Shown piece by piece: positions 9,536 through 63,359 of a stretch of 64,000 nt of DNA. The notes under the pieces were generated by a model. That model had not been told where the DNA came from. It was given only the letters and a program-made list of their open reading frames with translations, and searched no databases. The position numbers and the translations under genes are program-made. The stretch is from the NCBI GenBank assembly GCA_964036195.1, contig OZ038452.1:10410704-10474703 (forward strand), written 5' to 3'. The stretch's first letter is position 1; every line of letters begins with the position of its first letter. The stretch is from Sphaerolaimus hirsutus (taxonomy: Eukaryota > Nematoda > Chromadorea > Monhysterida > Sphaerolaimidae).

Positions 9536-10534
9536 CCCCTGCCGTGTATAGTCGAAGGGGGGTTTAGAGTATATTCCCTCAAAATTTCAAATTTTTACCC
9601 CCCTAGAACCGGAGTTATAGGCTCCGGAACCGACTCAACTTTTGGTTGCCGGACCTGGCGTGTCCCCTGTTTATATCTATGCTTGCATTCATATTTATGT
9701 ACTTCGTATGTACTTCTTTATTAAAATGCGAGTCGAAAGAGGGAGCCATGTAGCCAAAAAAATTTATTGTAAATATACACCCATGACGAAAAATACTCAA
9801 TTTACTCGAAAATACTCAAAAATACATATATTTTTACACAATTTTACCCAAGTACTGGGTAAAAACGATGTAGGTATTTTACCCAGGTATTTTTTGAACA
9901 TGGGAAAAAATGAAAGTATTTACCGGTACCGGTACTTTTGAAAAAGTTCGGTACTTATATTTAACAACTCTGGCGGTGGTAAAATGGTGCATAAATACTC
10001 TCCATCCACCCCACGGGTCTGTCCTGCTGTGTGAATGTGTTCCACGAGTTTCTAACAAATGCTAACATCTCCATCATGCTAACCTGTACAGATATATTTT
10101 AGTCATGTGAGTCATGTACTTATAGAAGTTGATAAAATGAGTCCCAAAAATCAATTCAGAGAAAACCGCGTTTTTAATATCATTTCGAATTTTCAATCAC
10201 ATTTCAATTCGATGGCGATATAAAAATCGATACAAAATTGATGGATGCAAAAAATTACCAGACGGAGTTCAGTAAAGTGTAAACAACTTCATGTTTTGTC
10301 CGGGCACTATCCGGATCGGTTATGCAACATTTGCATGAAAAGTGTGCAGCCAGCAGACTATAACTGTATCATTTTGCAAGAATGTTTACCAGATCTCTCA
10401 CGGCAGCAGACTTAAGAGCGTCGAAACTCTTGCATAAATAGCGCAAATAACGACAAAAAAATGTCGCTGAGCAAGTGGCAAAGCAAAGCACTTTGGCTTT
10501 ACCGCTAATGGGAAGCGATAGGCGCTCTTAAATA
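9536..10534. other. Intergenic, no gene seen; one hAT-like right end
   Basis: The sequence near 9830-9972 contains TTACCCAAGTACTGGGTAAA and ends TTAACAACTCTG, the right terminus of the CAGAGTTG family (44004-44789). Its left end was not found. The remainder shows no gene or RNA. Confidence 0.4.
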
Positions 10535-11065
10535 CCGTATTACCTCGAATTGACCCCCCCTTAAATAAACCCCCCTCGAAGTACCCCCGCCCTAAAATTT
10601 CGCTGAGGAAATAATAACCCCCCATCCCCTCGAAATACCCCCACCCAAGTTGATTGTAAAGAGAATGTACACAACAAATACTGCAGTTTGTGATCTGTAT
10701 GATGCACAACACACGTTGAAACCAATGACTGAGTGAGTGACGTTAGGGCAGGGTTTATGTTTATATACGGTTGTATACATCTATAAACACATAAACATCT
10801 ATGTACGTATTTCCTCGAAATAACCCCCCCCCCCCCTCCTTTAACCCCGCTCAAAATTTCCACTCTGAAAAAATACCCCCCCCCCCCGGGTGGTAATTCG
10901 AGGAAATACGGTTATTGTTTTTTCCTATGTCTCAGTACGTGGAATTTCACAAAATTTCTGGCGAAATATTAGACCCCCTAAATAAGCCCCCCTCGAATAA
11001 ACCCCGCCCCCTGAAAATTTGCTTGCTAAATAATACATCCCTGGGGGTATTTCGGGGTGATACGG
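10535..11065. mobile_element. CCGTATT-type (TA-flanked) element cluster
   Basis: It begins TA-CCGTATTACCTCGAATTG and ends GGTGATACGG-TA. Both sides hold many CGAAATACCCCC or CGAATTAACCCC units. A second, inner pair of ends (about 10805-10912) suggests one element inserted in another. TA flanks and this size fit mariner/Tc1-type MITEs. No transposase is present. Confidence 0.75.
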
Positions 11066-11109
11066 TATACATAAACGCTGCGCAAAACAACGCTAAGCGC
11101 AAGAGCACA

Positions 11110-11343
11110 ATGGAGCCTTTTCTAAGCAAACCGCCACATCTAAATGACGACAAAATTGCCGCGTTTACATCACTATTAATCGCGGTTACAATCAATCTCT
11201 CCGCAGCGTCGGATTTTCAAAGTGGCCTCTTGGAAAAAGAAGAATTTTCGGTTGTGCGCAAAACATTAGTGGTGAATAGGCCGCGCGACCGCCTCGCGAC
11301 TGTAATCTTTTTGCGTTCGTACCATGCCGTGTTGCAGATGTAA
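11110..11343 (+). CDS. Unrecognised 77-codon open frame
   Basis: I do not recognise this protein. The frame starts ATGGAGCCTTTTCTAAGC, lies in less repetitive and more GC-rich sequence than its surroundings, and ends at a TAA. It has a mildly hydrophobic stretch (FTSLLIAVTINLS) and a basic C-terminal half. It sits between two MITEs and could be a lone exon, a remnant of a transposon interior, or chance. No splice partners were identified. Confidence 0.2.
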   Translation: MEPFLSKPPHLNDDKIAAFTSLLIAVTINLSAASDFQSGLLEKEEFSVVRKTLVVNRPRDRLATVIFLRSYHAVLQM

Positions 11344-11502
11344 ATTTAAATTGGGGATGTAAATTTTCGTTCCACGGTCATACATCAACCAAAGGAACGA
11401 TATTAATACTGCCGCTGGTTGTACGCACTACGCACTACAAAAGTTCGACGCCAGAAACATCACTCAGATTAAGGTTTATGTGATGTGGTAATTCCTCACG
11501 GC

Positions 11503-12534
11503 CAGGGTTGGCAAAATCTCAGAAAAAAATAAAAATAAAATAAAAATAAAATGGAATATTCAAGAATAAAATAAAATAAAATAAAATGGAAAATTTAAGA
11601 ATAAAAATAAAAATTGTATAAAAATTCGAATTTTTGTAAAATTTTTGTAAAATTGTATAAAAATTCATATTTTTGTAAAATTGTATAAAAATTCATATTT
11701 TTTTGTAAAATTTTGTCTCATTGCTTGAGTTTCTACCTGTTTATTCATGGATCTGGGTCCCAAGTGTAAAGTGTCAAATGTCATGTAAAATGTCATGCAA
11801 AGTGTCAATTGTCATGACAAATGTAAGGTTAAGTGTAAATTGTCATGACATGTAAAAAAATAAAGTATCAATTGTCAAGCAAATTGTGTCCAAATCTTAT
11901 GTTTTATATCTAAATATTATGTTTTGTATCCAAATTATGTTGTTGTTGAATCCAAATCTTATGTGAACATTTGGATACAAAACCATAAGATTTGGATACA
12001 AAACATACTATGCAGACAAAAACACAAGATTTGGATACACAATTGCCACTTTGCTTGAAATTTGACATGACACTAGACATTTTGCATGACAATTGACACT
12101 TTACTTTACATTTGTCATGACAATTGACAAATTGCATTACATTTTACAAATGTGCCCAGCACACTCCACTAGTCCTTCTACTGAAAATGCAAACCATTCT
12201 TATCAATAATTGTAACTTTACACTTGCAGCTAGCTAACAATACATACTGCATGCAACTTTTGAAAAGTAAGGGAAAAATTTGTCACAGGTTTTTCATGTA
12301 TAGGTCTAATTATAACATTTTTCTGGCCTTGCATGCATGATTCTGATTTTTTGTAAAATTTTTGTACAATTTTTGTACAATTTTTGTAAAATGTGTCATT
12401 TTATTTTATTAATGACTTTTGGGAATAAAATAAAATAAAATAAAATGAAACAAGAATAAAATAAAAATAAAATAAAATTTTTATACAATTTTTATACAAT
12501 TTTACTAAAATGAATTTTTATAAAACCAACCCTG
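11503..12534. mobile_element. CAGGGTTGG-family hAT-like element 1
   Basis: The ends are CAGGGTTGGCAAAATC and ACCAACCCTG, with an 8-bp duplication CTCACGGC (11495-11502, 12535-12542). Beneath the ends lie AATAAAATAAAAT and ATTTTTGTAAAATTG arrays. The middle (about 11751-12165) is a palindromic TGTCATGACA/GTATCCAAATC repeat of the CAGACCC family. The same composite occurs in opposite orientation at 36876-37941, so the palindrome travels inside the element. Confidence 0.93.
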
Positions 12535-12542
12535 CTCACGGC

Positions 12543-13380
12543 TGATGAACTTTTCTAAAAATAATAGTTCATATTTATTTGTGTAGGCTGTAAATATTTA
12601 GTAGGAATGAATCACATGTTGACGGCGCATTTCTTTCTCACCTAAATAACTGGCCTCTCGTTTTGAGTGCGCCCGTCAAAAAAGTTGCATTCGGTGGCCG
12701 CAAATGGTGAGACAAAATGTGCCGTTGGAGATTCCCACTTAAATATAAAAATGGGGCGTTATGTGGGTATCACACGCCGCCGATTCGCGAAATTGGAGTT
12801 ACACGTTCGGAAAAGAATTCTTCCTTCAGTCATTGTAAATACTTAGTATTGCTGTATCCATATGTGCAGTTGCGATTTATATCAACGTTTCATTTTGCTT
12901 GTTAAGTTCCAAATGATAATTTCGAATCCAACGGAATACAGATTTATTTTTGTCCAGATGTGGTGCTAGTAAACAAGAGAAGTTTGGTTTGATCAAAAAC
13001 GCCATCATTGTGTGGGGGTTCTGAGGGTTATAAAAGTTGCACATACTTACAATCTACCAATATCAAAAAACTTTTTGGTCTCAAATGCCCAGAAAAAATG
13101 TGTTAAACATTTAATTTTCATTGCGCAGAAAAATTTGTCTGGAATCCCTCATTCATTTTTTCCAAACAAAATGTTAATCTCATTAAAAATGGCTAAAGCC
13201 AACAAAAAGTGGACCCTGCACCGATGTTTTGCAGTCAGGTGTATGCATTTGAATGCAGAAAAGAAATATATAACTTTCCCACAGTGTGTTTGTCAGTTTG
13301 AGCTCTGAAGTATATCACTTTATGTTACACAGTGAGGTTGAGCTCTTAAAAGAAGTAAATATATCAAAGGTACAATTTCA
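12543..13380. other. Intergenic, no gene seen
   Basis: Several short open frames occur (longest about 98 codons, 13012-13308), without recognisable domains or splice context. No transposon ends are visible. Confidence 0.4.
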
Positions 13381-13610: not shown

Positions 13611-14441
13611 TAACGATGGCAAAAAAAGATTCGAAAATTCGAAAACATTTTCGAATTTTCGAATTTTTTCATAATTTTCGAATTTTTATTCCACCCCCGG
13701 AAAAAACACTTAAAAATCGATTTATTTTTCAAAAAATTCGAAAATTCGAAAATTCAAAAATTCGAAAATAGTTTTCGAATTTTTCAGGGAATTCAAGGCG
13801 ACAAAACACACTCTTAAGTTCAGCGTGCAAAATAAAGCGACAATTGATGTGTGGTGGGTCTGAAAAAGACTGATGTAATAGAAAAAATACATAAAACATT
13901 GAAATGGGGTGCGCGGCAACAGCAGCGGACCCGACACATATATTGAGGAATGCACTGAGCCGTGCCGTGAACAATAAGAACCGCGGCGCAGAAACGGGGA
14001 CGCAGGTCCATCAAAAAGTCCGAGGGGCAGTTACCGTATTTCTTCGATTTTATTGACTGTCAATGTATTCTTCAGATGCCCTCCAAACCCGTCAAAGTAA
14101 TCGAGCATGGCCATGTAAATGAACAGTCAATAAAATCGAAGAAATATGGTATATACACAAGCGTTTTTTTTGGAAGGCGTTCAGAAATGGTGCAAAATCA
14201 CAGTGAAATTAAGGTTAAAAGGGGTTCCAAACATGAAAACAGTCCAAATACTGTGTTTTAAGCTCAAAAGTCAACATTTTGTGAAAAAGATTCGAAAATT
14301 GATAAAAAAGATTCGAAAATTCGAAAATTAAATTCGAAATTCGAAAATTCATCTGGGAAAAAATTCGAAAATTCGAAAATTCATTTAGGAAAAAACACTT
14401 AAAAATTTAAATACTTTTTTTCGGGGGGTTTGCCATCGTTA
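13611..14441. mobile_element. TAACGATGGC-family hAT-like element 1
   Basis: The ends are TAACGATGGC and GCCATCGTTA, perfect complements, flanked by the 8-bp duplication CTGTCCAC (13603-13610, 14442-14449). Subterminal sequence repeats ATTCGAAAATTCG on both sides. A TA-flanked MITE (14034-14150) lies inside. No transposase is seen. Confidence 0.95.
14034..14150. mobile_element. CCGTATTT-type MITE nested in a hAT-like element
   Basis: The 27-base terminal inverted repeats begin CCGTATTTCTTCGATTTT and differ by one base between the two ends. TA flanks both sides, as in mariner/Tc1-type insertions. At 117 bp it can only be a non-autonomous copy. Confidence 0.85.
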
Positions 14442-14449
14442 CTGTCCAC

Positions 14450-15786
14450 ATAACTCAAACGTGAGCATGAAATGACAGCATGACATAGTAAAGCAATAAA
14501 CATGGTCAATAGTGGCGGTTGTGACGTGGCTGGCGCTCTTGCGAACTGCCCAGCAACTCGACAGTGATCAGTGACAATTTGCACTTTGATTACTTAATTT
14601 TGATTGAGCAATTTTTGCACTCTTAAGTATCACGGGCAACAACAACAACAACAACAAGAATGCCACATCAGAAAGAAAATCTTTAATAACTTTTGTCTAA
14701 CTCAACCAATCAATCTGAAAATTGGAGTCAGGGTACTCTCCAACACGGGCGGCTTTCCAGCGGTGTTTAGTTTCTATATAGCTTTTGACGTTCTAGAGTT
14801 ATTCGAGTTTCAATTGTCGAATTTCCGCATTTTGCTGTCTCTGACCATATTATGGGTGGGTCGCTTGCGCCCTCCCTCTGCAGCGAGGGATGGCGCTGGC
14901 GCGCCCACCCGATTTTTTTCTGCACCAAAGGTGGCCTGAGAGGGGTGCCCCAAGGGTATATATAAATAGTACATAGGTACTTTGGGACACCCTGACACAA
15001 GATGAAAGCCTAACAGCTTAAATGTGGGATTTATAATATAAAATCAAGGGATTTCTAAAATTTAAATTTTCCACCAGTTTAAATATTTACATTAACAAGG
15101 TGTCATTCATTACAGGGTTTGTTTAAAGCCTTGAAAAAATCTGGTTTTTACTGGCATTTTACCTGACACTTGACATTTGTCTGACATTTGACCAACGATG
15201 GAAAAAAACACAGAGATTGAACACAGAAACTCATTGAGTTTCTGTGTTTTTGTTTTACACAGAAACACGGAAACTCATAAATTTTGAAAAACTCAAAACT
15301 CAAATGAGTTTTTTTCCGGAGAACACAGAAACACAGAAACACGGAAACACACAAAAGTTTTTTGAGTTTTTGTTTTTTTCAGCAAGCAGTTGAATGCACA
15401 TTAAAAACAAAACGTGGGGTTAAAACATGTGCAAAACCAATATTTTATAAGAAAACCACTGTTCCAGATCGAAATGCTGTAAATCAAAATTTTTTGGGGG
15501 AAAACTCGAATTTTTTGGAAAAAACTCGAGTTTTATAGAAAAAATCTGAAAAAAAACTCGAGTTTTTACAAACAAAAAAAAAACAGAAATAAACACAGAG
15601 TTACTCAAGTTTTTTTTCGAGAAAAAAACTCAAAACACAGGTATTCATTTTTGAAAAACTCTAAACTCAGAAAGCGTTTTTTTTGGAGAACTTACCCATC
15701 GTTGCATTTGACAGGTCCCTTCCCCGACTACCACATATGGGGATGGCGCTATTATTGCTTGTTAAATATTGAATAATTTTAATATA
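14450..15786. other. Non-coding; start of duplication unit and repeat arrays
   Basis: Homology to copy B starts near 14740. A short inverted pair, GGGGTGCCCCAAGG and CTTTGGGACACCC, brackets TATATATAAATAGTACATAG at 14941-14993 and is also present at 50380-50433. From 15195 to 15700, AACTCAAAA, CACAGAAAC and CTCGAGTTTT arrays fill a block that copy B lacks, bounded by ACGATGG (15194) and CCATCGTT (15696). That suggests another hAT-like element. No gene is seen. Confidence 0.5.
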
Positions 15787-16416: not shown

Positions 16417-16471
16417 ATTTTAATTTTTTTTTTACATTTCGAAACGCCGAAGTTGAACTTTGCCACTTTAC

Positions 16472-16686: not shown

Positions 16687-19600
16687 CTGCGTGAATTGTG
16701 GCTCATTTGATGAAATTTGATCAAGCTTATTCAAGTTAGGTAGGTGTGTTGAAGCAGGTATAAATACTGTAGACTACAAAAATAGATAACCCCTTATAGC
16801 CACTACTTAGTGGGATTTCCTCTTGCACGAGAACGGTGTTTGCAAGATCAGTTTGACCTTAAATAAATAGTATATACCGTATTACCTCGAAATACCCCCA
16901 GGGGGTTTATTATTTCGCCAGCAAAATTTGAGGGGGGGTTTATTCGAGGGGGGGGTCTATTATTTCGCCAGAAATTTTCGGAAATTCCCCATACGCAGAC
17001 GTAGAAAAATCGAACAATCACAGATTTATACCTATGTGTTTATAGGCATATATTACTGTATATACACAAAAACCTTTCCGTAACGTCACTTAATCATCAG
17101 TTTTAACGTGTGTTCTGCATAGTACAGATCACAAACTGCGGTATTTGTCATGTACGTTCACGTTACACTCAATTTTAGGGGGGGGGGGGTATTTCGAGGG
17201 GGGGTTTATTTTTTCCTCAGCCGAAATTTAGGGGGGGTATTTCAAGGGGCAGTTAATTCAAGGGGGGGGGGGATAATTCGAGGTAATACGGTAGCTTAAT
17301 AGCTATGAAAAATGGCCTCATTTGTTTTTCAGTTCTTAATCTATAGCTATTTGCCTGGCTGTGAATACCAGAGTTGTTAGAATTACTGAACTTTTTTTAA
17401 AAGTATATGTAAATGTAAGTATTTATTTTTTTTACTCACCAAAAAGTATAGAAAATGTAAAATACTTTTTATTTACTCGTACTCATGCGTAAATGTGAGT
17501 AAAATACTTTTTCCCCTGGGAAAATGTAAAAGCGAGTATTTTTTCCCCGGAAAACGTAAAAGCTACTACTTTTTTACATGTGAGAGTGAGTTTTACACTG
17601 GAAGACATAATGGATCTCATTCTTTAGTGATTATTTAGTCTTTTTTACAAATATTATATGATTTCTTCAAAATTTTCGTATTTTAGCAACAGAGAATAGT
17701 GATTTAGCAACAAAAAATACATTTTCTCTGTACGCGAGTACTTTTAAAATGTCATAAATCACACAGCACACATGTTAGAAAACGAGAGATGATGCGCTAA
17801 GGTGTTTATTGAGTTTTAAAAGTTTTTTAGTCAAGTTCTACAGTAGGTTCTACTGAGTAGGTATGTAAAATCAATGACTTTGCCATGGCTTTAATGGAAT
17901 TGCTGATGACATGAAATCGAATAGAAATAAGCCCCACCCCATTCTGCTGCCGAACCATCTGTGGTATCGCGTGGAAATACGGTATACGGAAAATTGAAAA
18001 TAATGGCGCCAACCAGTCTCCAGCTGTTCATAATCGTAATATTCAAGCCAGCAATTCATCTTGTCAAAAAATTCATCGCTGTTTGTCCCACCGCACCCCT
18101 TGTGTTTGCATCTTATTTCCCTCTCATTCGGTAGCAGATCCTCCTGGGGGCAGTCCCAGACCCTGTAAAGTGTCAAATGTCATGCAAAGTGTCAAAAGTC
18201 GTGTAAACTGCCCGGTAAAATGGCAAACGTGCGTTTGCCGTTTTACCGGGCATTTTACATGACTTTTGACACTTTGCACGACATTTGACATTTTACAGGG
18301 CATTTTACAGGGTTTGGGATTGGCGGCACCTGAGTGAAGCCAAATTCTGCCAAAGTCATGTTCAGCCATTGTTCCCCTGGTCTTTGTGCCGGTTCAACAT
18401 GCCTCCTAAGTCTCTGGGATACCTCCGGCAGTGGTCTTATCAGTGGCATCAGCGCCACTGATGTCACCGATGTCCTGGATGGTTCGATTTTTTTAATGTT
18501 GTTTTTATGAATGTGTATCATGCAAAAATACTGAGTGGTTTTTTTTATAATTCCTCAACCGGAAGTTGTTGTATTCGCATGGGGGCAGGCATTCGTTTGT
18601 GCATTCCGTGATTTTCTGCCTTACATCTGGCTGCAACAGTCTACTCTGATTCAAAGCACATTCTTGCATCTGCAAAGGTTTCGCAATGAACGATGGCAAA
18701 AAAAGATTCGAAAATTCAAAAATGTTTTCGAATTTTCGAATTTTTTCAGAATTTTCGAATTTTTAATTCACCCCTGGAAAAAAACACTTAAAAATCGATT
18801 TTTCGAAATAATTTTCGAATTTTTCAGGGAATTGGAGGCCACAAAACACATTCTTACGTTAAATGTGATAATTCAATCAACAATTGATATGAGGTGAGTC
18901 TGAAAAACAGTAATGTAAAGAAGAAAAACATCAAAAAAGTGTTGAAATGGTGTCTGCAGTCGACCCAACAAATCCGTTGAGGAATGCACCCAGCATACTC
19001 TTACTGAGTGGTTGAGCTACTTCTGCTAAAACAGACACCACTCCATCAAAAAAATTGGCCTTGAGTTGTTGTTGCAAGTTGTTGAACAGAGCGCTGTCTG
19101 ACAAGTCCATCAGTTGCCACTTTCAGTTCCAGATTCTGTAAAATGCCCTGTAGAATGTCAAATGTCATGCAATATGCAAAGTGTCGACAGTCATGTAAAA
19201 TGTCAAACTTGTTTGTGCAAAATTTACACAACCATACGAAATTACAGTGAAAATACTGTATTTCCTCAAAATACCCACTCAATTTTTTTCAGAGTGACGC
19301 TCAGACCTGGGGGGTATTTTGAGGGAAAGGGGCTAATTCAAGGAGGGGTGGGGGTATTTCCAACAAATACAGTGAGTTAAAAAAAGTTATCCAAACATGA
19401 AAACAGTCCAAATACGGTTTTTAGCTTCAATTTCAATACTTTCCCAAAAAAATTCAAAAATTATTTGAAAAAATTTGAAAACTAGCCAAAAAAATTCTAA
19501 ATTGTCCAAAAAGATTCGAAAATTCAAAAATTTGAAAATTAAATTTGGAATTCGAAAATTAATTTGATGAAAAATTCGAAAATTCAAAAATTCTGTTTGG

Positions 19601-22600
19601 AAAAAACACTTAAAAATTTAAATACTTTTTTTCGGAGGGTTTGCCATCGTTAATCGCAATTGATGATTATCCAGCACGGCAGAAACAAAGGTTTCATGGA
19701 TATTGGATAACTTGTTGGATGTTGCAAAATGGCTTTTCAGCATATTTATCAAGCAAGAACTGGGATGAGATCGGTCTCATACAGTTGCAACTGGTGTAAA
19801 CATCGTCCAGTGCACATTGCAGCCTGCATATCCCCACTGAATAGTCCAAGTTCAACATCTGAAGGGAATGAGAATCATTAATCATCATTAATCTGGTAAT
19901 CCCCAACAACTTATGATGGCAAACCGGAAAATGTTTAATTTTTTAAGCATTTTTCTAAAATTGTAGGTGGAAATATGGCTAGCCAATCATGCGTAAAAAC
20001 GTAATGACAATTTTGTGCAGACACTCCGACGACTCGAGAACGACCATGTGTGACCGAATGACGGCCCGCGGTGCACAGGGAAGTCACAGTGAACGCGAGG
20101 TTTGCTGTGCACTGCAAATCCGCCAAGTATTTTTTCTTTCCGTTAATTACGTAACTATTCCTGTGTGATTTTAATTGTTTCATTTCCTGTTTCATTTAAT
20201 TAAGCTAATTAAGTTACCCGCATTTTAAGTTAATTAAGTGATTACTTTCGTTTTTTTGAATGTACTTTTGGACATGTAATTTCGAATTTTAATTTTTAAG
20301 GTTTCTATTAAGTTTACATAGTTGATCAAAAGGGTGCAGTGTCTGGGAATGGGTTAGAAAAGCTTTGAAGTTTCTTGTTAAGCTAAAGGTGTCGACTCTG
20401 TTAAACACCTTGGCGCCCCAATAGATAACATTCAGAAATTTCCCCGACCAAGTGCATTTTTATTTAGGACTAGGTAATGGGTGGAAAAGTGGCAAAACGG
20501 CAATTATTGTCGACATGCGACTGCAAGACACATGCAGAGCACAGTCTAAAGTGAAGAGCACAGCAGTGCCAATTAATTATTCCCATCACCCAGGGTGATT
20601 GGTGAACTCACAAGTGCTAGTGTCTTTGTAGCGCGTGTTCATGCCCGAAGTTCCAACCCTTACCCGGCAATGCAATAACCTTGAGTAAACCCCCGCAAAT
20701 GAGCGTTCTTTCTGTGGCCTTGGTCGGGCGCGCTATAAAATATTTCACCTAAAGGGGCGCAGGGTGATAACACGTGTCACACCACCTGTTCTAAATTGTA
20801 CCGTAACCTCTGAATAAAAACCCAGTTTATGACACTCACCTCTGAGATATTTTTATTTTAATTACGTCAGATTAATCACAGTTACCTTATTTTTGGTTTA
20901 ATTCACGTTTGCATTTTTATCATTTTTCCCGCATTCACTTAATTTTTCCCGTGCCTTGTACGCTATATTATTCGTTTTCCAGTGATCATTGTTTTTGCTT
21001 TGTAATCTTCTAATTACAGTTAATTGTTGTGTCTCAGATTAAGTATTCAGTAATGATATGGTAGACTTTTTGTGATTATAAAACGCGCTGATTTTACGTT
21101 TTTTCACCCACTAGAGGCTTTACGACTCACTTGTGCTATTGTGAAATTGACTCTGATTGCTAAATAAAGTTCCCGTGAAATCCAACTTGGTCCCCCTGAA
21201 GCATACTAACTGCTTTGTATTTTAATTTGATTTTATTAATTACGGCTTTATTTTATTTACGGCTTATTAACAGTTAATCGAAGTAAACCGCCGGCTGCAG
21301 TTACGAAAGGGATTGGTAAGTTGCCATGTCCGTCCTCGGGAACTTGTCAGGACCCCAAGGGGTACTGGCGCTGTTCCTGATTTGCGTGTAAAATCCCTGT
21401 ACCATAAAAACAAACATTTGTTTAATTACGCACGCAATTAAAAGCGCAAAGGGACCGGAATTTACAATTCTCTGCCGCGGTAATTCGACGAGTGGCGTAT
21501 TTTTGTGGTAAAAACGGAAACTAGTAAAATTAGTAAAAATGTAAAATATCTGACAAAATGATTTTTCGAATTTCCATCTTTTTCATAAATAGTTTTTGAA
21601 TTTTCTTATTTTTTGAGTACTTTTCGATATTTCCACTATATTTTTTCATTTGCAAATTTTTCTGGTCAATTTCCAACACATCTTTGTGTTTTGCAGCTTC
21701 CCAGCTGCTGCCACATACGCATTTATGCATTTTTGTTGTTCTGCCCATGAGATCCATGGGAATTTCAACATTTGAACTTCGTTTACGCACTTTAGGCCCA
21801 CTGTTTCTCTTTTGAATGTAAATACATATGAATATAATCATAGAATGAAAACTGACGTGCATTTGTTCCATGGCCTCGTTCTGCTCGTAGCAAAGTAAAG
21901 TCGGGTGAAAAAGTTCGCTCTTCTTACTCAGCATTGTCATCTTTGTGAGCTCCAATAAAATTGACGTCCTTTTGCCCGTCTCCGCCTATGACAGCGATTC
22001 AACTAGATTCACGCGGTTTTACAGTTAGGTAAAGTCGGCAGACGTATCGCCCTACAAACATTTGCGTCAATCTCTCCAGTGGAGAGTGCATGACGGCATT
22101 AGGTATTGTGACGCAATATTTTAACCATTGGAATAGATTGGGTCACGTATGAAAACTTGGCCCTTATCCCAGTTTCCAGTTGCGTATTATACAAATGAGA
22201 GTGAAAACTGAAAGTTAGCTAAAAATCATTAAAATTTGCTGCGCTTTGCCGATTTCCCCCTTCATAATCGCTATTTTTGTTTATATACATGTTTATATAG
22301 TTATTGTGAGCCTATTTTATTCATATTAATAGCGGATTTCGAAATTTTGGCCGGCTGCCAAGTTCTCTTCTGTTGGAACGGAGCCAATGAATGAAAAATA
22401 AAGTAAAAACAAAAACGGTAGTTTGAACTGTAAAACGGTAAAACGGTAGTTTGAACGGTCAAATTCTTTACGAGCAATGTTGAAAATGTAGATAACTAGG
22501 GCGTGGAACGCACCGACGCAGCGAAACGTCCATTTTTCTTTTAATATGATTTTCTTTTTCAATTTCTAGCGTCCGCGTGGGACACAAGTTTCGTTGTTCG

Positions 22601-25600: not shown

Positions 25601-28600
25601 GTGCATGGATTGAACAAATGCGCAATGACAATAGATGATAGTATCCGCCACTGGTTTCCCGCCCTTGCCCTTTCGTGGCAAAAGGGCAGGAAAACACTGG
25701 TGCATAATACACTATGGGATATTCTTCTGATGGTTTCTGAGAACAAACACCATTTTTCGCAGTTATGGCGGCGGGAACCAGCAGGGAGGTGGTCGAGGTG
25801 CATACAGACGCGGGGAATTTTCCCAATATCGAGGCGTGGGCGGCGGGCGCGGCCACCCATACGGCGACTCTCGGCGCTAGCTCATCACGCCAGCAGCATT
25901 GGTATGTTGCTAGGACTGCTTGCGATAGGGGGATTCTGGATTTTACAACTGCACTTAGCAAAACCACAAAAAACGCTTGGATCAGAAAGGGGTTGGCGTA
26001 AGATGGGATATCTGTTACGGGGTAATTACTATGTAATATCACTGTGCAGAGTGGCTATCGGGCGGAGTGCGGAGGCACGTGTGACATGGAGTAGGCGGTT
26101 GACAAAAATGTGGCGGCAGTTCTCATCTGGCGTTTGTGATATTAGGGAACGGATAGGGGTATGTCTCTCAATATTATGGGTGATATGGAAAAGGGCACTT
26201 TACACGTACCGTGGTAGGTCCCAAAAAAACCATATTCTAAGACCAACAATGTTGACAAATCACACCAACCAACAACACAGCACAGACACAGTAGGAATGC
26301 AATCAGGTGAGGACACCGTTGCTCATGGTCCGAGAACTAAAAAACAGAGGGCTATAGGCAGGATAACGGGGATCCTACGGAAAAAGAAACCGGACGTGAA
26401 GCTAGGCAACAATAACAAAGAACTGAAAAACAAAAAGGGGGTGACATGACAAAACGTGAGATCGGCGAGAAATAAGCACGAACAAATACGAGAAATGCTG
26501 AGAAGTGAACGCTGTGATATTGTCATTTTGGGAGAAGCTAATGTAAGAACGCGACTTGAGACAACGGAGATGTCTGGGTATGATCTCACACTCATACCCA
26601 AGCCCGAAAACAACAACGGGGGTTTCCTTGTATACATAAAGAGATCTATCTCGGCATACATGCAGGGATCCATCACAGAGGGGGGCTTAGAGAGTAATAC
26701 AGTTTCAATGACAATATCAACACTGGCAGGGAAAGTGGATATTGTAGGACTGTATTTACTAGATCAAGGGAGGCTACAAAGAGACAAAGAGCAAAAGGAA
26801 TCAAATGCCAAAATCCTGGAGGCAATATCAGAGCAAATAATAGGCAACCGAAGCTCGGGTAGAGATACCATTGTTGTTGGTGATTTCACTGCGTTGCTAG
26901 GACCTGAACTATTAGGAAGAGGTAGGTGCAGTGAGACTGTTAACAGCACCGGGAGATTAGTGAAAGGATGGCTGGGCGCTAGACATGTCGGTTCTAGATG
27001 ACGCTAACAGACAATGGTGGACCTTTGGAGTCAGGCAGGATGAAAACAAGGCTCAATTACTGCATGATCGATAATCAGGCCACGACAGTGTCTGCAGATA
27101 TGAAAAATCTTGGACATGGGTGAAGTCCCCTGATATCGGATCATAGTGCACTGGACATCGATATCAAGATAGAATCAAGCGGTGGGGTATTAAGGGAGAA
27201 TCAAAGGCAGTCACGAAGGTGGTCTGTCAGGAGAAAAGATAAATCGACCAAATTTCTATCAGAGATCGAGAAAATTCTGGAACACAAAACAGCTCCGGAC
27301 AGCTGCTCTGCCCTGCTTGATTTCCTGCAGCAATGGGCGTAGCAGTGGTTCGGAGTAAGGCACGGAAACATGAAAGAGTCGAAGCACATCAAACAGATAA
27401 GAGAGACAAAATGGATTTTGACCAGGAAACGCAGAGCGCTGCACGAGGGGAGATTAGGGTTGACTGTAGGGCTCGAAACTCAATTTTTTTTAACTCGAGT
27501 TTGAGTCGCAACCCCAAATTTTTTCCGGTCGAGTCGGCGAGTCGAGTCAGCTGAGCCAGTGAAAGGTCGAGTCGAGTCAGGGAAAAATCTCAAGTCTCGA
27601 GTCGAGTTGGATGCGTTACTTTTTGGTATGACCCTTGCAGTAATTTTTGATACTGGTTTCTCTACCAATGTTTTCACACACACTTAATGAAGTCTAAATG
27701 CCAACAGTTCATTTAAATATCAAGATAAAGCAAAAACAGAACTTTTTATCACTCATGTTTAGGGTGTCAACTTTCCGTTTTCCGTTTTCCGTTTCCGCTT
27801 TCCGCAGGCAAATTTTTTTTCCGTTTCCGTTTCCGTTTTCCGGCTGCTAATTTTTTTTCCGTTTCCGTTTCCGTTTTTCCGGTTCATTTTCCATTTTCCG
27901 GCAATTTTTTTCAATTTTTCCGCCTTTTTCCGTTTTCCGGTTCAATTGTCTGTTTTTCCAACTTTTTTCAACTTTCCAGCTCAATTTTCTGCTTTCTGTT
28001 TCAGCCAAACTCGTAAAAATGCATAGAGGTTCTCAATGAAGTGAATTGTTCCTATTTCTAGTGAGATTTCTGCAAATTTTTTAATTCAGGATAAATTTCT
28101 GCAAATTTTTTTCCGTTTCCGGCAAAATTTCAGCAAATTTTTTCCGTTTCCGGCATAATTTCAGCAAATTTTTCCGTTTCCGTTTCCGTTTTCCGGCCTT
28201 CCATTTTTCCGTTTTCCGTTTTCCGGCAAGTGCAAAATTTTTTCCGTTTCCGTTTCCGTTTTCCGGCATGTGCAAAAATTTTTCCGTTTCCGTTTCCGTT
28301 TTCCGCCAAAAAGTTTTTGTTGACACCCTACTCATGTTGCTACAAATAAATTTGCAAATATAAAATCAGCCTAGGGATGGAAAATCTTTTACAACATTTT
28401 TTGGATGACTGTCAACATTGTGCAATGCATTTGAGGTGGTGTGTGTTTCGCATGTGGCGCTGCACATGCTAGTTTACTGCCAGATTTTGGTAAACTCATA
28501 AATTGGCTTTGAATGCATTTGAATTTACCATAATGATGTATCTGTCAACTGCAGTTGATGGCAGGTGTCTCGAATGGGGGGGGGGGGTTGGGGGGGTTAC

Positions 28601-31600
28601 CCCCCCCCCCCCAAACCGCCCAGCTATCTATCTATCCCGGAGGCCGCTCAGCTATCTATCTATCTATCTATCCCGGAGGCAAAATTTTGGGCTACTACCC
28701 CCTAAACCCCCCCCCCCCCCAAACCGCCCAGCTATCTATCTATCCCGGAGGCCACTCAGCTATCTACCTATCCCGGAGGCAAAATTTTGGGCTACTACCC
28801 CCTAACCCCCCCCCCAAAATCGCCCAGCTATCTACCTATCTGGAGCGATTTTTTAGAAACTATACCCCAATTTTCACTCAAAATCGCTATTTTTCACACC
28901 TATATATAGATTTTCACCTCCAAAATCACTAGTTCATGCATCTAACTGCCTATTTTCAGCTATTTTAAGTACTATATGCTCTTGTATACTCATTTTGAGC
29001 TATTTTACGCCTACTTTTAGCGATTTTTCTCCCTTTTCCTCTTTCTATGCCCTGAAAAAGCCTATATATCGAACCACCACAACCCCCCCCCCAACCCCCC
29101 CCAGAAAATTTTTCAGCTATCTATCCCTCCGGAGGAGCGATTTGCTATCTATCCAACCACTTGGAGGGTCAAAATTCAAGATACCCCTGGTTGATGGGGA
29201 TTAAGAATAACTCATTTCAGTAAACTCAAATGCGTTTTATCAAAGCTGATTAATGAGTTTACCAAAATCTGGCGCTAAACTAGCATGCACATGCACATTA
29301 TGTAGAATTGTATGGTAATAAGACATTTGAGTTTTAACACCATTCAATGCATATGCCAAGCCAATCCACAATATATAACGCATGTGGTGTGGAAATGCGC
29401 GCTCGCGCGCAAGATTTTTGAAAAATATGTTTAAAATTTCATATAAAAATTGATATTTTAGGACATTATTCAATGGAAACCCTGACTCGAAATTTGCCAA
29501 AATTTCGAGTCAAGTCGGGCAAAAACCTCGAGTCTCGAGTTTGGGCCATATTTTTCCGGTCGAGGCAGACGAGTCCAGTCGGTACCCTGCTTTACCCTCG
29601 AGTCACAGGTCGAGTCGAGTCGAGTTGAGTCGAGTTCGAGCCCTAGTTGACTGAGTACAGAAATGCACAGAAAGCTGGATTGCAGAATATCAGACAGATC
29701 GAAAGATCTGCGAGAGAAGAACAGAAGGATAGGGTAATAGAGAATGAGCTGAAATACAGAATTGAAAACACAAATCTGTATAAGTTGGCAGCGAAACTAT
29801 GCGATTCAGATGTCAAATATCCTATGCTAAAGAATGGGTCAAGAGTGTGCAAGGACGACGAGGAATTAAAACAAGTGTTAGTGGATTTCTGGCAATGAAT
29901 ACAATCTCCAAATATAGAAAAAACCTGCTTCGACACAGACCACGGGATGAAAGGGGTAATAGATAGAAATCTATCTGAACAAATGGACATGGAAATATCA
30001 CAGCTCGAGACATTGGAGGCGTGCAGGAAAATGAAGCTGGGGAAGTCGGCAGGCACAACGGGGATATCACATGAGATGATATGAATGCCTGGGAGACACC
30101 TACTGGCAGCCCTGACAAATCAACTGAATCGGTGGTTCGACGGTCAGGAGGCTATCCCGAACAAAGTGAAAACATGCAAACTAGTCCTACTGCATAAAAA
30201 GGGATCGAAGTCAGATGTGAACAACTATCGGACGGTGGGAATTCAGTGCAATATACTCAAGCTATATTGCTCAATCTTGAATAAGCGGCTGATGAATGCA
30301 TTTGAAGTAAGCAATGCTTTTGGCGATATGCAGGCCGGTTTTAGAGCAAACAGAAGAACGATGGACAACCATGTGATACTACAGGGATGCCTAGCAGAGA
30401 CAAACAAACTGTCAGCCTGCTTCGTGGATGCAGTCAAAGCCTTCGATAGAGTGAACAGGGATCGCTTGTGGGTCAAACTGAGGGACTATGGGTACGGCAA
30501 GAAGCTATGTACGGCTGTAAAAGGCACGTACACAGGTCAGCAATGCTATTTACAATACAATGATGTTAGCACAGAAAACTTAGACTATCCACTAGGGGTA
30601 TGCCAGGGGTGCTGCCTAAGTCCGACGCTATACGTCCTGTATATGGCGGACTTACGGACCAAACTGGAACGGCTAGGGATAGGAGCAAAATTAGGGGGGA
30701 GAAAAATACCAGCAGGCTTCTTTGTGGATGACGTCGTACTGATGGCAAACACCAATCAAGATCTGCAATGCGTAATGGACACATTCACGGACTGGAGTTA
30801 CAAGTGGGGAGTTGGAATAAGTGAACAGAAAAGTATGGTGATGCACTTCAGAAGAAAAGCAGATCCATACAGGAACTGGGAATTGGGGATTGATCACGAT
30901 GGGAACCGACAAGTTATCAAAGAAAGTGATGAAACAAAATATTTGGGGATAAAGCTGAGTAGCGGACGAGACCCTTTTCAGGCGCAAAAAAACGGCTACA
31001 TGGACAAGCTCACAAAAGGTAGGTTCCTGGCTAAGGAAGTTGGAAAACACAGCAGACAGCAAATTTGGGCGTTGAACATGCTCTGGGGGGCATATGTTGC
31101 AAGTACAGTTATGTACGGCAGTGAAATAACGGGAATATCAAAAACAGCGCTGAAACAAATGACAGCCTTACAATTAGGGCTGTACCGACAATTGGGCAGG
31201 GTGGGGAGAAATATTTCAAATAAGCTGCTAGGGATGGATTGGGATATCAGAACGATGGAATGCTGGTATAAGTATAATGTGATCAGATATAATGATTATC
31301 TGGAATCGAACAAAGCTTCGGAGACAACCAAATTAGCAGCATAAATATGGGGCGTACAAAGTTAAAGGGGGAACGCGGGTTCAATGAGGAAAAACTCACC
31401 ACGGGGCTGTGCAACGGGAGCAAAGAGAGAGGTAGGGTTAGAAAACTCACAAAATTGTCACAAATATGAAATACTAACATAATGCAAACACTACGGCTGG
31501 GAAGTTGGTTTGAAATCTAGGACAACAGGACAATGAAGTGTGCAAAAAGAAAATCAAGTTTTAGAGGAGATAACACCACTAATACCAGAAACACTGCAAA

Positions 31601-39952: not shown

Positions 39953-40098
39953 GATACTGTAGCTTAATTTAAATATAGTGTTTATGATTAGAGATGTAAA
40001 AAGTGCCAGGACTTTGGCGCCGAGCGATACTGTAGCTTAATTTAAATATAGTGCTTATGATTAATGATGTAAAAAGTGCCAGGACTAGTGATGTGAAA
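39953..40098. repeat. 73-bp direct repeat of flank plus transposon end
   Basis: GATACTGTAGCTTAATTTAA through GGCGCCGAGC occurs at 39953-40025 and again from 40026. The second copy is interrupted after GCCAGGAC by the element at 40086-43658. The duplicated unit includes host flank and the first 40 bp of a GCGCC element. Confidence 0.85.
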
Positions 40099-43000: not shown

Positions 43001-43658
43001 GCTGTTTTACAACAATCAGATATGAAATTGAAGTTAAAAAATTGTGGTCTCGAATTTTACATGCAAGCAAAAAGTGCAGCATTTTACATTCACAACCAAA
43101 GATACCAAAAAATTAAAAAAACACTCCATATTTTTTTTCTAAAAAATCGCGTTGAAGTGTTTTTCTCGTGGTGGGATCAAAATTTGTATATGCTTTCCAA
43201 CTTTCAAATTTTGGATTGGTTTGAATTGTTAGTTTGGACTAGTCTCAGAGTGCAGTCTGCACGCTGTTAGGTCAAGTGTCATTCAAAAAATGTAAAATGT
43301 CAATAGGAATAAGTAATAAAACATTTTATCGTTGAAATTTTGACACTTTGCATGACATTCGACAAAGTCACAGGACTTTTTACTGTTACACATTGACTTT
43401 TTGCTTCAAATAACGATGTATTTATATTTTTGAGTCCTTGGCGCTTTTTTGGCGCTTTTAAAATCACAAGCGCCAAGCGCCAATGGCGCCACAGCATCAT
43501 TGCGCCAAGCGCCAAAAGCGCCATGGCGCTTTTGCATAGCACAGCGCCAAGCGCCAATGGCGCCACAGCAAAAAGGCGCCAAGCGCCAAAAGCGCCATGG
43601 CGCTTTTTGCTTTGGCGCTAGCGCCAGGCGCCAGCGCCATGGGTCTTTTACATCACTA
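40086..43658. mobile_element. Second-level GCGCC-type hAT-like element
   Basis: Left end TAGTGATGTGAAAAGCGCC, right end GGTCTTTTACATCACTA, 8-bp duplication GCCAGGAC (40078-40085, 43659-43666). Its left array is cut by the CAGGCTGTC element. Between 42640 and 43440 lies the interior sequence TTTGCTGCTCA followed by TAATGATGGCAAACC, shared with the element at 36405-38335. Confidence 0.93.
40164..42504. mobile_element. Third-level CAGGCTGTC-family hAT-like element
   Basis: Ends CAGGCTGTCTGTGA and TCACGGACAGCCTG are inverted repeats with one mismatch, flanked by GCGCCAAG (40156-40163, 42505-42512). That octamer is also an array unit, so the duplication is weaker evidence here, but excision would rebuild a regular array. 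The interior has GGTATAC-type motifs near both ends, GGGTTGGGAATTTC/TTCCAACCCTAG repeats (40669-41265) and no recognised gene. Confidence 0.8.
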
Positions 43659-44003: not shown

Positions 44004-44789
44004 CAGAGTTGCGAAAGTGTATTTACACTTACCCGAAATACCCGGGTAAATGGGTATTTATATTTACACTTACACTTACACTTCCATAAAATATCCATAC
44101 ACTTTTTTTTACACTTTCCTGAGCAAAATACCCGGGTACAGAAAGTGTATTTTTTTTCTTTCAGATGGCCCTGTTTTATGCTTTTGGGAAAGCATAAAAT
44201 AGGGTCATGTACAAAAAATAACTGCACAGTGCACACATGCATTGAATGTACAAAATATGGCACATGTACAAACTGGCCTTTGATCTCCAATCTTTGATCA
44301 GTACTCATGGTATTCTACAGTTTCATCATACTTTTGTAAAAAGGACAAGATCAATGGAAATTCACCAGCTGGATACAAAGTCAACTGGCTTTTGCATTGA
44401 CATTTGCTGCATGTCCAATCTTGCATTTAAGCAGTGTGTATCGCATTGCTTAATCAGTAAATATCAACACTGAAAAAGTGCCATTATTAGTGAACTTGAT
44501 ACCACTACAGTATTTGCTACAGTCTGAAATGTTTCATAAAAATCAGAGAAATGTTAAATGATGCATAAAAATGACAAATATATTGATCTAAAGGTGAAAA
44601 CAGTGGTGTATTCTAATGATCAACAGTGAGAGCTCTTTCTAAAAAAAAATTTTACACTTACACTTTTTTTACACTTTCCTAGGAATTTTTAAAATACCTT
44701 ACACTTTTGGTATGCATACTCAAAATTTGGAAAGTGTATTTACACTTACACTTACACTTTACAAAAATACCGGTATTTTAACAACTCTG
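44004..44789. mobile_element. CAGAGTTG-family hAT-like element, copy A site
   Basis: Ends CAGAGTTGCGAAAGTG and TTTTAACAACTCTG, 8-bp duplication CAATTAAC (43996-44003, 44790-44797). Both flanks are filled with TTTACACTTACACTT units. Copy B carries a relative at a different nearby site and none at this one. No transposase is present. Confidence 0.95.
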
Positions 44790-59515: not shown

Positions 59516-59649
59516 CGATTTTCACCATTTTTTGGAAACTGAAGCAGCGCTTGGTGGAAACTATAAAGCCACAATAAACATTAATTTTTTTTGAAGTGGC
59601 ATAAAATATAATTCACCACGTTAGATACTGTAGCTTTATCTAAATACCC

Positions 59650-59847: not shown

Positions 59848-59991
59848 TGTAATAAAAATATGGCCCGCCACCTGACAGTGAAGTTTCGTGAAGTGATGTT
59901 AGACTCGACCATGAACACACTTTCCCATTTACTCACCGTCACGAAGCGGCAGTAAAATAAAGAATATCTGTCTTACATGAACAATTTAATG

Positions 59992-60691
59992 CAGAGTTGC
60001 GAAAGCGTATTTACGCTTACCCGAAATACCCGGGTAAATGGGTATTTATACTTACGCTTACGCTTACGATTTCATAACATACCCATACACTTTTTTACGC
60101 TTTCCCGGCCAAAATACCCGGGTACTAAAAGCGTAAAAAATCTTTTCACAGTTCAGTTTTACACTTTTGAAAAAGCGTAAATACACAAAAAAGAGGGTGA
60201 ACGAGGCTGCGTACCAAAAAATGACTGCGTGTGTGCAGTAATGCACTGGAAATAGTGGCACATGTACAAATTGTGTCGCAATATGAATGTCTTGTAAAAA
60301 TGTACTGTGTCATCGAGCTAAATTGTGGCTTCAGGTGAGAAAAATTTGTTGCTGACAATGGATCCCGACGACGATTTTATCGCCCTTGACAGCACTAACT
60401 CCACATTAGAAGATGAGGATGACTTAAGTGTTGCTGCCGATGAATAACCAAACAAAATATGAGGGCAGTCTATGCTAAACGGACATCCGAAAAATGTCAC
60501 CGAGATCTTGATTTGGAAAGAATTCACTGAGCAAAAAGCCTCTAAAAGATTTTTACGCTTACGCTTTTATTTACGCTTTCCTGGGTATTTTAAAAATACT
60601 TTACGCTTTTAGTATCCATACTCAAAATTTTGAAAGTGTATTTACGCTTACGCTTACGCTTTCCAAAAATATGGGTATTTTAACAACTCTG
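59992..60691. mobile_element. CAGAGTTG-family hAT-like element, copy B site
   Basis: Ends CAGAGTTGCGAAAGCG and TTTTAACAACTCTG, 8-bp duplication ATTTAATG (59984-59991, 60692-60699). Copy A has the empty site AACAATTTAATGTCAGTCC at 44860. Units are TTTACGCTTACGCTT, against TTTACACTTACACTT in the copy A element. The middle has an acidic 29-codon plus-strand frame (60358-60447, MDPDDDFIALDSTNS...), perhaps a leftover of an autonomous parent. Confidence 0.95.
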
Positions 60692-61375
60692 ATTTAATGT
60701 CAGTCCACGGCTTTATGTTATTTCGTTATTATAATGTCAAAAACAAGGGTTGGGAATTTAAATGTTTGCCGGTCTAAAAAGTTCGAGCTAGTTATCAGGT
60801 ATAGATTCTAATTTTTTTTGAGGTTATTGAGTACAAGACACAAGTATTGATGTCAGACATTGGGTTGGGCTTTCATCACGAAGTGCCAGATTTTGGCAAT
60901 AGAATTCTTTGGGGTTGGGTTATAAAATCATCAGAATGCAGCAGTTTTTCCCAGAAAAATTCATTTTGCTTGAGAAAAGAGTAAATATGATCATTGAATT
61001 GTGACACAATAAGAATGTTAAATATTCACAATAAGAATGTTAAATATTCACAATCGGAATGTTAAATATCCTTATTACCAAATCAATATGAAGTGTATTT
61101 GAAATCAATCTACTTCAGTGCCTTTTGCAGAAAAATGACTAGGTATCTAACTTTCTAGCTTCAGATTAGGCCCCCTTTTTGTCCTACACAAAACCTGTAC
61201 AACTAAATGCACATCGGAGTGAAATTGGGATCAGGTGCACCAGACATTTGGTAGCTATTTTAGACAAGGACAAGGCATTAAGCATCATTGTGCATAAAGT
61301 TAAATTGATTTTTTCAAACATGGATGGAAGAATGCAACAAAATCTGATCTGAACATATTGAGTACATACAACTTA

Positions 61376-61803
61376 CCGTAAATCCTCGAATAAGTCCCCG
61401 GGGGAGTTATTTTTTCCTCAGATTTTTTTGAGGGGGGACTTATTCGAGGGGGGGAAGTTATTCGAGGGGGGGAGTTATTTCTTTGTCGGAATATTGAGTA
61501 AAATACTTGATCAGTATATCATCTGAATGGGGTTAAATAGGCTGCATAAATGTGTGAGCCAGAATAGAAATCCCGTAATTCATGCAATAAAATCAATGCT
61601 AGTGTCCATAAACTGCAAAATAATGAATGCTTTTAATGATCATATACATACATACGTTTTTTTACGTGGACTTTGTTCCCACCCATAAAAGAGGGGGGAG
61701 TTATTCGAGGGGGAGAGTTATTTTTTCCTCAGTCAGTTTACATGGGGGAGTTATTCGAGGGGGGGAGTTATTCGAGGGGGGGGACTTATTCGAGGATTTA
61801 CGG
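61376..61803. mobile_element. CCGTAAATCC-type MITE specific to copy B
   Basis: Terminal repeats CCGTAAATCCTCGAATAAGT and ACTTATTCGAGGATTTACGG are perfect complements, flanked by TA (61374-61375, 61804-61805). GGGGGGAGTTATTCGAGG units repeat throughout. Copy A lacks it near 47188. Confidence 0.93.
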
Positions 61804-62215
61804 TACCTAGTATTTATTTACTGTTGATTATTGCTTACATAGGGACATACCCTCCTAAGTAAATATTGACAAAGAATTCAATGAATAGACCAATTGTCTA
61901 GTGCCAAAAATTTTAATTAGCAGTTTGCTTCTTTGTCAGTGAATGTCATGACTCATGAGTTACCAATTAGTACAAAATGGTTGAATTCCAGCTGCACAAC
62001 ATTTGTATTTATCATACAACACTTGAATGATTTAATGGTTCAACTGTGGACACTTTTTTGCGGGTACTCTTGGGTATTGAGAGTACTTTAGGGTATTTGT
62101 GTCGTGTATCGATTTTGGGTTCAAGTTAATACGTATTAGATTTGGGTATTTGGTTCCTGTTCCAAAAATATGCGTTTATCGCGATCGGCTCGGATTCCAA
62201 ACCCTATCAAGTACT

Positions 62216-62860
62216 AAATATTAAAAACTCTGGTGGGATAGGCTATAACGCAGAATAAGAATGCATCATCAGCTGCCGGCGACAGGTGGCTCCATTTGTT
62301 TTAACAACGGACACGCATATTCAAATACTGAACAGAATATATTACATATACATCGATGTTCAATGGAACACACATAAAGACAAATTGCGCATTGGGTTAG
62401 GTAGTCCCAAAAACATCTTATTATGGCTTTAAAAATTGGACCTGACGTCAGCCACTTCAGTCGAATGAGTTTCTTCGGTTCGGTAATTGGCTTTTCCACG
62501 CTTAAAACGTTCAAAATATCTGACAAGCTTAGATGCACTGAAAAGCTGCTTTGTGACGAAATGCATAAAATATGTAGGTACATGTTCATACAGGAAAGAA
62601 GTATACCTACTTTAGGTCAGGACATTATACTCCGCTTCCAAAGCATACGTTTCTTTGACGTGAAATGTCAGAAACAAATACTTTTGATCCTCATTGAATT
62701 TCATCCTTCAAATGTTTCAAAGAAAAAAATCGTCTGTTGTAAATGAACGCGTATTCTGTTAATTTCAATCAATTTTCTTCAATCGTTTGTCAAGAACTTC
62801 GCTTTTGCAATTTAGTAGACAAAACGATTTTCTTAGTCATTAAATTGACGACAGATTATA
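62216..62860. other. Non-coding flank after the duplication, no confident gene
   Basis: A 107-codon plus-strand frame (62423-62746, MALKIGPDVSHFSRMS...) and an overlapping minus-strand frame lie in this less repetitive DNA. Neither is recognisable, and no splice context was found. Confidence 0.35.
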
Positions 62861-63359
62861 CCGTATTACCTCCAATATAAGGCATCCCTCTAATATAAGG
62901 TACCCTCTAATATAAGGTATAACTTTTGGCTATTTTGAACGCGACGGAATAAATATAAGGTACCCTCTAATATAAGGCATATCTCTAATATAAGAAACAG
63001 CTGGATGTGTGCCAAAACGTGGAAAATTATAAAAACGGTTACTTAACATGGCGGAAAATATGAAAATGGTGCTGAATGGCACTGCGATAACTCTTTGTCG
63101 ACTTCCGCCGCTGAAAAATGTTGTCTCAAATACGGATCTGGTCGTTTTGTATTGATGCTGTTCGGTCTTATTGTTACATTCCAATTTGAAAATATGAATT
63201 TCGTTGCTGTTGACTGATTGTTCAATTTATGCAAAATGTGGCGATAAAAATTGAAGGTACCCTCTAATATAAGGTACCCTCTAATATAAGGTATAACTTT
63301 TGGCTCTAAAAATCTGACGAAAACAATATAAGGTATACCTTATATTAGAGGTAATACGG
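62861..63359. mobile_element. CCGTATTACCTC-type MITE filled with CTAATATAAGG
   Basis: Ends CCGTATTACCTCCAATATAA and TATATTAGAGGTAATACGG, flanked by TA (62859-62860, 63360-63361). CTCTAATATAAGGTACC units occur at least eight times in two clusters. A 63-codon minus-strand frame crosses the middle, without recognisable motif. Confidence 0.92.

Follow-up and report, generated by a model that had tools for sequence, protein, structure and literature searches.

The 64-kb stretch of DNA analysed here (the window; positions 10,410,704 to 10,474,703 of contig OZ038452.1 of the nematode Sphaerolaimus hirsutus) contains inverted-repeat elements that carry arrays of short words. These elements are hAT transposons, mostly non-autonomous, as is evident from their terminal inverted repeats (TIRs), their 8-bp target-site duplications (TSDs) and the presence of transposase remnants in several families. 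The words are specific to each family and lie near the element ends, and in one family, CAGAGTTG, they have changed in a coordinated manner and in register between sister classes. The best reading, which we consider probable, is that the subterminal words are transposase-binding sites that co-evolve with transposase specificity. The arrays had been noticed in an earlier sequence-only reading of the window, which did not recognise the elements as members of the hAT superfamily, where subterminal transposase-binding repeats are established.

hAT elements and their subterminal arrays

Short TIRs that start with YA are a defining feature of the hAT superfamily. Such elements were sought as YA-starting inverted ends of at least 8 bp, at most 4 kb apart and flanked by an identical 8-bp TSD with at least three letters, in 214 kb comprising the window and fifteen 10-kb stretches at places of our choosing. 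The scan returned 30 places, one of which covers two tandem copies, vs 0–2 places when the TSD comparison was shifted by 1–13 bp (eight shifts). The ends observed were TAGGG.., CAGGG.., TAACG.., CAGAG.. and TAGTG.., their YA start being partly due to the construction of the scan. All genome-wide counts given below refer to a genome of 348 Mb in 762 contigs, and L-numbers denote loci fetched from elsewhere in this genome.

The hAT C-terminal domain (PF05699) has at least 28 matches in the genome, and 21 of these loci were fetched. At 18 of the 21, the end of one of five families is found together with the array of that family at most 1.6 kb downstream of the domain; 16 of these ends are exact and two have one mismatch. 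The tied loci belong to TAGGGTGTCAA (eight), TAACGATGG (three), TAGGGTTCAAA with CGATAT words (three), class GT of CAGAGTTG (three) and CAGGGTTGG with TAAAATAAAAT words (one; at L058 a remnant adjoins a CAGGGTTGG end and a TAAAATAAAAT array). The remnant is flanked by both element ends and a perfect TSD at just four of the 21 loci, namely within a TAACGATGGC copy at L039 and within TAGGGTGTCAAC copies at L040–L042. Three loci, L043, L056 and L057, were not counted as tied: L056 encodes a TAGGGTGTCAA-like protein, but its one-mismatch end is far off and an array was not seen, and L043 has an exact CAGAGTTG end, but no adjoining TTACNNTT array. Ends of the TAGTGATG, TAGGGCTCGAA, TAGCATTGAA and CAACGATGG families were never the nearest clear end to a remnant in these 21 of 28 loci, and TAGTGATG ends sit farther out from the remnant in four of them.

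Pfam confirmed the hAT domain in all five remnants submitted (four of the 18 and that of L043), and the L041 remnant, which alone was compared with solved structures, hit Hermes chains in the PDB; searching for its homologues gave five short unnamed matches. In alignment, remnants from the five families look unlike one another. Over 512 bp, a short copy of the GT class aligns with the 3' portion of a GT copy that has coding sequence.

The relationship between arrays and ends was analysed in a blind test, in which the most enriched interior 7-mer of each element was sought in the outer 50 bp minus the terminal 8; low-complexity words and most AT-only words were filtered out. The 33 elements, from 15 end-defined families, comprise the 31 rows of the scan minus two (4875-7466 of the window, which spans two copies, and L020 3742-6044, which is an artefact of an array), to which BLAST or word search added four (L022 3990-5028, L022 5036-5827, L023 4795-7018 and 18688-19652 of the window). 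The top 7-mer recurred in at least one end of 25 elements and in both ends of 19. With the ends of other families, the means were 0.54 and 0.00 (maxima 4 and 0; 2000 draws), and with random windows 3.97 and 0.65 (maxima 9 and 3; 300 draws). At the level of families, 11 of the 15 have a positive member and 7 have one that is positive at both ends.

This comparison of dominant internal words with subterminal motifs had been suggested in the sequence-only reading, which proposed that many families carry arrays of their own end motif. The proposal is supported across families, and four of the six families named at the time were positive (TAGGGTGTCAA, TAACGATGGC, CAGAGTTG and TAGCATTGAA). The TAGGGCTCGAA family was negative, its motif being ranked second and present in one end, and so was CAGGGTTGG, whose motif fell to the filter against most AT-only words; CAGGCTGTC and CATAGGCGGC were negative as well. 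All six named families do exist, each with at least one copy flanked by a perfect 8-bp TSD, and subterminal clusters of the named words, which were selected by us, occur in every one of them.

The arrays were also said to fill the elements, which is not the case for most of them: the middle is other sequence and the words cluster near the ends. For 27 elements, with the family word picked by us, no match is more than 250 bp from an end in 25 elements, and in the other two 95% and 97% of the matches are within this distance, a test that says little for elements below ~700 bp because 250 bp per end covers most of their length. The coding remnants of L040–L042 contain no motif matches. Despite the inverted TIRs, the words have the same direction at both ends in TAGGGTGTCAA (5/5 elements), in TAGGGTGGCAG (1/1) and largely in CAGAGTTG (12/12, 11/13 and 8/9 matches), while other families, e.g. 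TAGTGATG, have words in both directions. The five TAGGGTGTCAA elements carry 7–13 exact word copies per end. Family-specific repeats near both ends, as they characterise hAT subterminal arrays, are thus found here.

Coordinated change between sister classes

The elements of the CAGAGTTG family form three classes, AC (TTACACTT), GC (TTACGCTT) and GT (TTACGTTT). The left-end pattern CAGAGTTGCGAAANNGTATTTACNNTTACC has 2445 exact matches genome-wide and its reversed control none. Among 100 matches listed, 94 are uniform, i.e. the second pair is the reverse complement of the first, and just three states occur. For the right-end pattern there are 3659 matches; three equal sites are present in 90 of the 100 listed, with ~13 expected under independence. 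For 58 of the 100 listed left ends, which fall within the span of the right-end list, partners were assigned by distance and strand rather than by TSD. This yielded 37 pairs; 35 of them have a uniform left end, and in 33 of the 35 all right-end sites are of that class too. When the 33 pairs uniform at both ends were shuffled, agreements averaged 14.6 and reached at most 25, against the 33 observed. Fifteen copies were fetched; 12 have a right end within 1.3 kb, ten of these with a perfect TSD and two with one mismatch.

The sequence-only reading had compared two sister copies in the window and concluded that the whole array had changed together. This is correct for the copy at 44004, which is AC at all scored sites (8/8 left, 8/8 right), and approximately so for that at 59992, which is mostly GC with exceptions (6/9 left, the others being GA, AC and AC; 7/8 right). 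The difference holds beyond the window, and the joint change of array and end motif is borne out by the genome-wide pattern counts in two families.

In the class consensus rows of both ends, the sites align in the same order and layout. Between AC and GC, 14 of 17 homologous sites differ, every one of them by AC to GC, and between GC and GT 14 of 16 scored sites have changed, 11 of the 14 reaching GT. Within conserved end regions, which were delimited after the alignment had been seen, 14 of 34 core columns differ between AC and GC vs 7 of 223 other columns (p 2e-9), and 15 of 33 vs 19 of 225 between GC and GT (p 6e-7). Over the whole 165-bp rows, the corresponding counts are 15/36 vs 23/276 (p 1e-6) and 16/35 vs 32/269 (p 6e-6). 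Outside the motif, the AC-GC distance (0.082) is similar to that within GC (0.090), and GT is further away (0.136); in the consensus, distance and tree comparisons an internal copy stands in for the right end of L027. The excess of core changes between classes indicates that subfamily descent alone is insufficient: it accounts for the uniformity within a class, but not for the changes between classes. Chance was set aside after the shifted-TSD, end-match and core-column tests.

AC and GC copies are linked by BLAST mainly via their ends. L038 (G000:C1:2411510-2412829) has a middle of the AC lineage (69% over ~800 bp) and sites that are mostly GC, besides AC and TG ones; it may predate the switch or represent an intermediate of it.

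The TAGTGATG family (AGCGCC vs GGCGCC) changes together as well, less completely than CAGAGTTG, so that coordinated change between sister subfamilies, which the sequence-only reading had asked for, is found in both families. Its arrays are either AGCGCC-rich (seven distinct elements) or GGCGCC-rich (two), as typed from 12 rows that represent nine distinct elements (one element is present thrice, L005–L007, and one row covers two copies). A 33-letter pattern that contains three cores and no element end has 8573 matches genome-wide and none in the control. Matched palindrome cores are present in 93 of 100 listed (43 A..T, 50 G..C), and the neighbouring core is G in 0/44 rows of the A type and in 34/56 of the G type. 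Clusters with multiple hits are uniform in 26 of 27 among the matches listed (shuffled mean 10.4, maximum 20).

A third possible switch concerns CGGGAT (L012) vs CGATAT (L048–L050) behind the same TAGGGTTCAAAC end. As the spacing differs by one base, these copies are not strictly in register. The CGGGAT-spaced pattern has 3243 matches, and most of the 100 listed have CGGGAT at all three sites; this spacing is absent from CGATAT copies, and the list is uninformative on their number.

Site sets, transposases and alternative explanations

The position of the words, the agreement of both ends and the association with different transposase remnants make transposase-binding sites their natural reading. 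A word repeated near both ends would be bound by the transposase of that family, as predicted from sequence; the TIR would be the end that is cleaved, and affinity and family identity would come from the subterminal array. If the word preferred by the transposase of a lineage underwent a one-base shift, the elements whose sites followed would be mobilised best. With one transposase per lineage, the shifted preference would select each site in turn, and sites would change singly; once the majority at both ends agreed with the new word, the derivative would amplify. The changes presumably ran from GC to AC and from GC to GT, because GC copies are the most diverse, and selection for mobilisation may have driven them.

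We also put forward, as a serious possibility rather than a likelihood, that in CAGAGTTG, and probably in other families, a nearly complete set of sites at both ends was rewritten site by site and in register to a word shifted by one base. A single ancestor would have given rise to two such rewritings (TTACGCTT to TTACACTT and TTACGCTT to TTACGTTT), and coexisting sister families with largely orthogonal recognition would be the result.

Several observations weigh against the reading of the words as transposase-binding sites that co-evolve with the transposase. No intact transposase was seen, no systematic search for one having been made, and no coding AC- or GC-class copy is present among the 21 of 28 PF05699 loci, so that the predicted change of the transposase between classes was not seen. 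Some hAT-like elements lack an array, e.g. CAGGCTGTC at 40164-42504. In addition to the delimitation of the end regions after inspection, many non-motif columns inward of these regions separate AC from GC, and a small tree with weak support does not unite the AC copies in one clade. One right-end site remains GTG in AC and GC alike, two left sites remain GC in 5/7 GT copies, and three of the 14 sites changed between GC and GT miss the GT word; the presence of a few unswitched sites fits piecemeal change. In TAGTGATG, 22/56 rows of the G type retain A at one core, and the comparison of consensus types is weak (p 0.19 left, p 0.04 right) because the two types differ elsewhere too. Finally, uniformity inside a class partly reflects common descent, and the independent evidence consists of two transitions over ~17 sites each plus a second family, and not of thousands of copies.

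A motif-directed rewriting process may also have produced the switched site sets and would look the same as their stepwise rewriting. It is unlikely that the arrays are ordinary satellites, grown by replication slippage or unequal exchange inside miniature inverted-repeat transposable elements, with re-expansion carrying a new end motif through the array, which would then simply mirror the end. Tandem units do occur in the TAGTGATG and TAGGGTGTCAAC arrays (74 bp at 4901-5071 and 40 bp at 28206-28309), spacings of 73-74 bp are present in both TAGTGATG types, and arrays of families other than CAGAGTTG seem to have been enlarged by tandem duplication. The CAGAGTTG sites of all classes, in contrast, are homologous and recoded in place at both ends, whereas slippage would shift or duplicate sites; AC and GC copies are joined mainly at their ends, and word copies remain near the element ends. 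Slippage or gene conversion, to which the sequence-only reading had attributed the concerted change, is not supported: in CAGAGTTG the sites align one to one and differ by point changes in a conserved layout. These findings speak against re-growth by slippage in CAGAGTTG, and gene-conversion tracts would need to be a few bases long.

Somewhat less likely still is that the words are recognised not by the transposase but by some other protein encoded by the element or by the host, for example a host regulator or an anti-silencing factor of the type of Arabidopsis VANC. The short motifs to which VANC proteins bind are described as building up in tandem copies in VANDAL elements and as differing from one sister family to another (PMC5735166). 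The sites studied here, however, hug both ends of mostly short elements, with one site beside the TIR, whereas the VANDAL motifs are described in introns and upstream regions.

Very improbable is the decay of a methylated TTACGCTT array to TTACACTT at every site by CpG loss. GC to AC does turn CpG into CpA, both CA and TG products occur in the mixed copies L037 and L038, two non-motif columns that are mostly CG in the GC class (4/7 each) are CA (5/5) or TG (4/5) in AC copies, and 3/5 AC copies carry one TTATGCTT within the outer 180 bp. Yet all 14 sites changed between AC and GC are CA and none is TG, which rules out CpG decay as the sole cause; four other non-motif CpG columns are largely kept as CG in AC copies (5/5, 3/5, 5/5 and 4/4), and neither GC to GT nor AGCGCC to GGCGCC is a CpG loss.

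If the co-evolution of sites and transposase is confirmed, it could explain how many hAT families persist in one genome without cross-mobilisation. Thousands of natural matched site sets in discrete states would make the joint change of a protein and its scattered sites directly testable with hAT transposases, and would offer a route to reading the binding word of a transposase from sequence alone.

Elements of the window and related systems

Elements in the 64-kb window, with strand, TSD and associated words
Element	Position	Strand	TSD	Words and remarks
TAGTGATGG, hAT-type	199..3022	+	CATGTGCC	GCGCC arrays at both ends; top interior 7-mer is another word
TAGTGATGT	4875..5970	+	TACTGGGG	AGCGCCA-type arrays
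TAGTGATGT, second copy	6380..7466	+	TACTGGGG	same TSD as 4875..5970 copy
CAGGGTTGG	11503..12534	+	CTCACGGC	TAAAATAAAAT arrays near both ends
TAACGATGGC	13611..14441	+	CTGTCCAC	ATTCGAA arrays
CAACGATGG	15193..15704	+	CATTTGAC	AAAACTC / CTCGAG motifs
TAACGATGGC	18688..19652	+	no perfect TSD found	ATTCGAA arrays; one left-end mismatch
TAGGGCTCGAA	27467..29645	+	GTTGACTG	ACTCGA words near ends; hosts nested 27760..28330
TAGGGTGTCAAC	27760..28330	+	CTCATGTT	TTTCCGTTTTCC (AAACGGAA) arrays; nested in 27467..29645
CAGGGTTGG	36876..37941	-	ATCATGTC	TAAAATAAAAT arrays
TAGTGATGT	40086..43658	+	GCCAGGAC	GCGCC arrays; interrupted by 40164-42504
CAGGCTGTC	40164-42504		GCGCCAAG	array-free; inside GCGCC array of 40086..43658; counter-example
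CAGAGTTG, class AC (TTACACTT)	44004..44789	+	CAATTAAC	
TAGCATTGAA	45523..46603	+	GTGCCGAT	GAGATTT / AGATTTTCTG words
CAGAGTTG, class GC (TTACGCTT)	59992..60691	+	ATTTAATG	sister of 44004

The shared TSD of the two adjacent TAGTGATGT copies probably reflects a tandem duplication of a segment that included the flank. Palindromic stretches of words like CCTGTAAAATGTCAAATGTCATG are present at 3370-3730, 23673-23826 and 55115-55281, and the CAGGGTTGG elements have a similar palindrome in their middle. Another dispersed array family consists of ~17-bp tandem units of CCTCGAAATACCCCCC and its complement (24055-24104, 61432-61479, 61744-61795 and also L023). The window has few long open reading frames, and one at 30085-31344 encodes a reverse transcriptase (PF00078, 9e-29).

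Subterminal arrays in hAT elements are already known, and the new part is the in-register switch. We know of no report on in-register switching of whole hAT site sets, and searches of an open-access library showed no title or abstract start that deals with it; subscription journals and Repbase reports are outside this scope. The TIR of the maize hAT element Ac has YAGGG-like letters, and the VANDAL elements of Arabidopsis are Mutator-like.

Ac is described with an 8-bp TSD, an 11-bp TIR and multiple AAACGG hexamers in the terminal 200 bp, which are bound by the transposase, and its Ds derivatives as heterogeneous, non-autonomous and containing filler or transposase fragments (PMC3260210). The elements studied here resemble Ac/Ds in the 8-bp TSD, the short TIR, the subterminal word repeats and the non-autonomous copies. 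The TAGGGTGTCAAC motif AAACGGAA (27760-28330, L040–L042) even contains AAACGG, which may point to a shared specificity or be a coincidence. In Herves, a hAT element of Anopheles gambiae, CG/AATTCAT is repeated at both ends and is described as necessary and sufficient for transposase binding, one-base variants being bound more weakly (PMC3143072). Binding of short repeats, with one-base variants that are bound differently, is described for the transposases of Herves, Ac, Tol2 and Tag1 (PMC3143072, PMC3260210). Repeated short subterminal sequences also matter for the activity of Kat1 (PMC4763223) and, as indicated by a title cited there and by PMC3143072, of Tol2.

In VANDAL/VANC, motif arrays likewise change together between sister elements, which is attributed to tandem repeat formation (PMC5735166). 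The short-motif arrays of the two systems are alike in this respect, but VANDAL/VANC, as described, involves an anti-silencing protein and motifs in introns and upstream regions, with change by tandem repeat formation, in contrast to the in-register recoding seen here. Tol2 and Kat1 are described as single elements, unlike the switched sister sets of S. hirsutus, and the arrays of tens of copies and the sister classes with switched motifs also differ from Herves as described in PMC3143072. Differences from Ac/Ds are the density and uniformity of the sites, the coexistence of many array families and the recoding of site sets between sister subfamilies.

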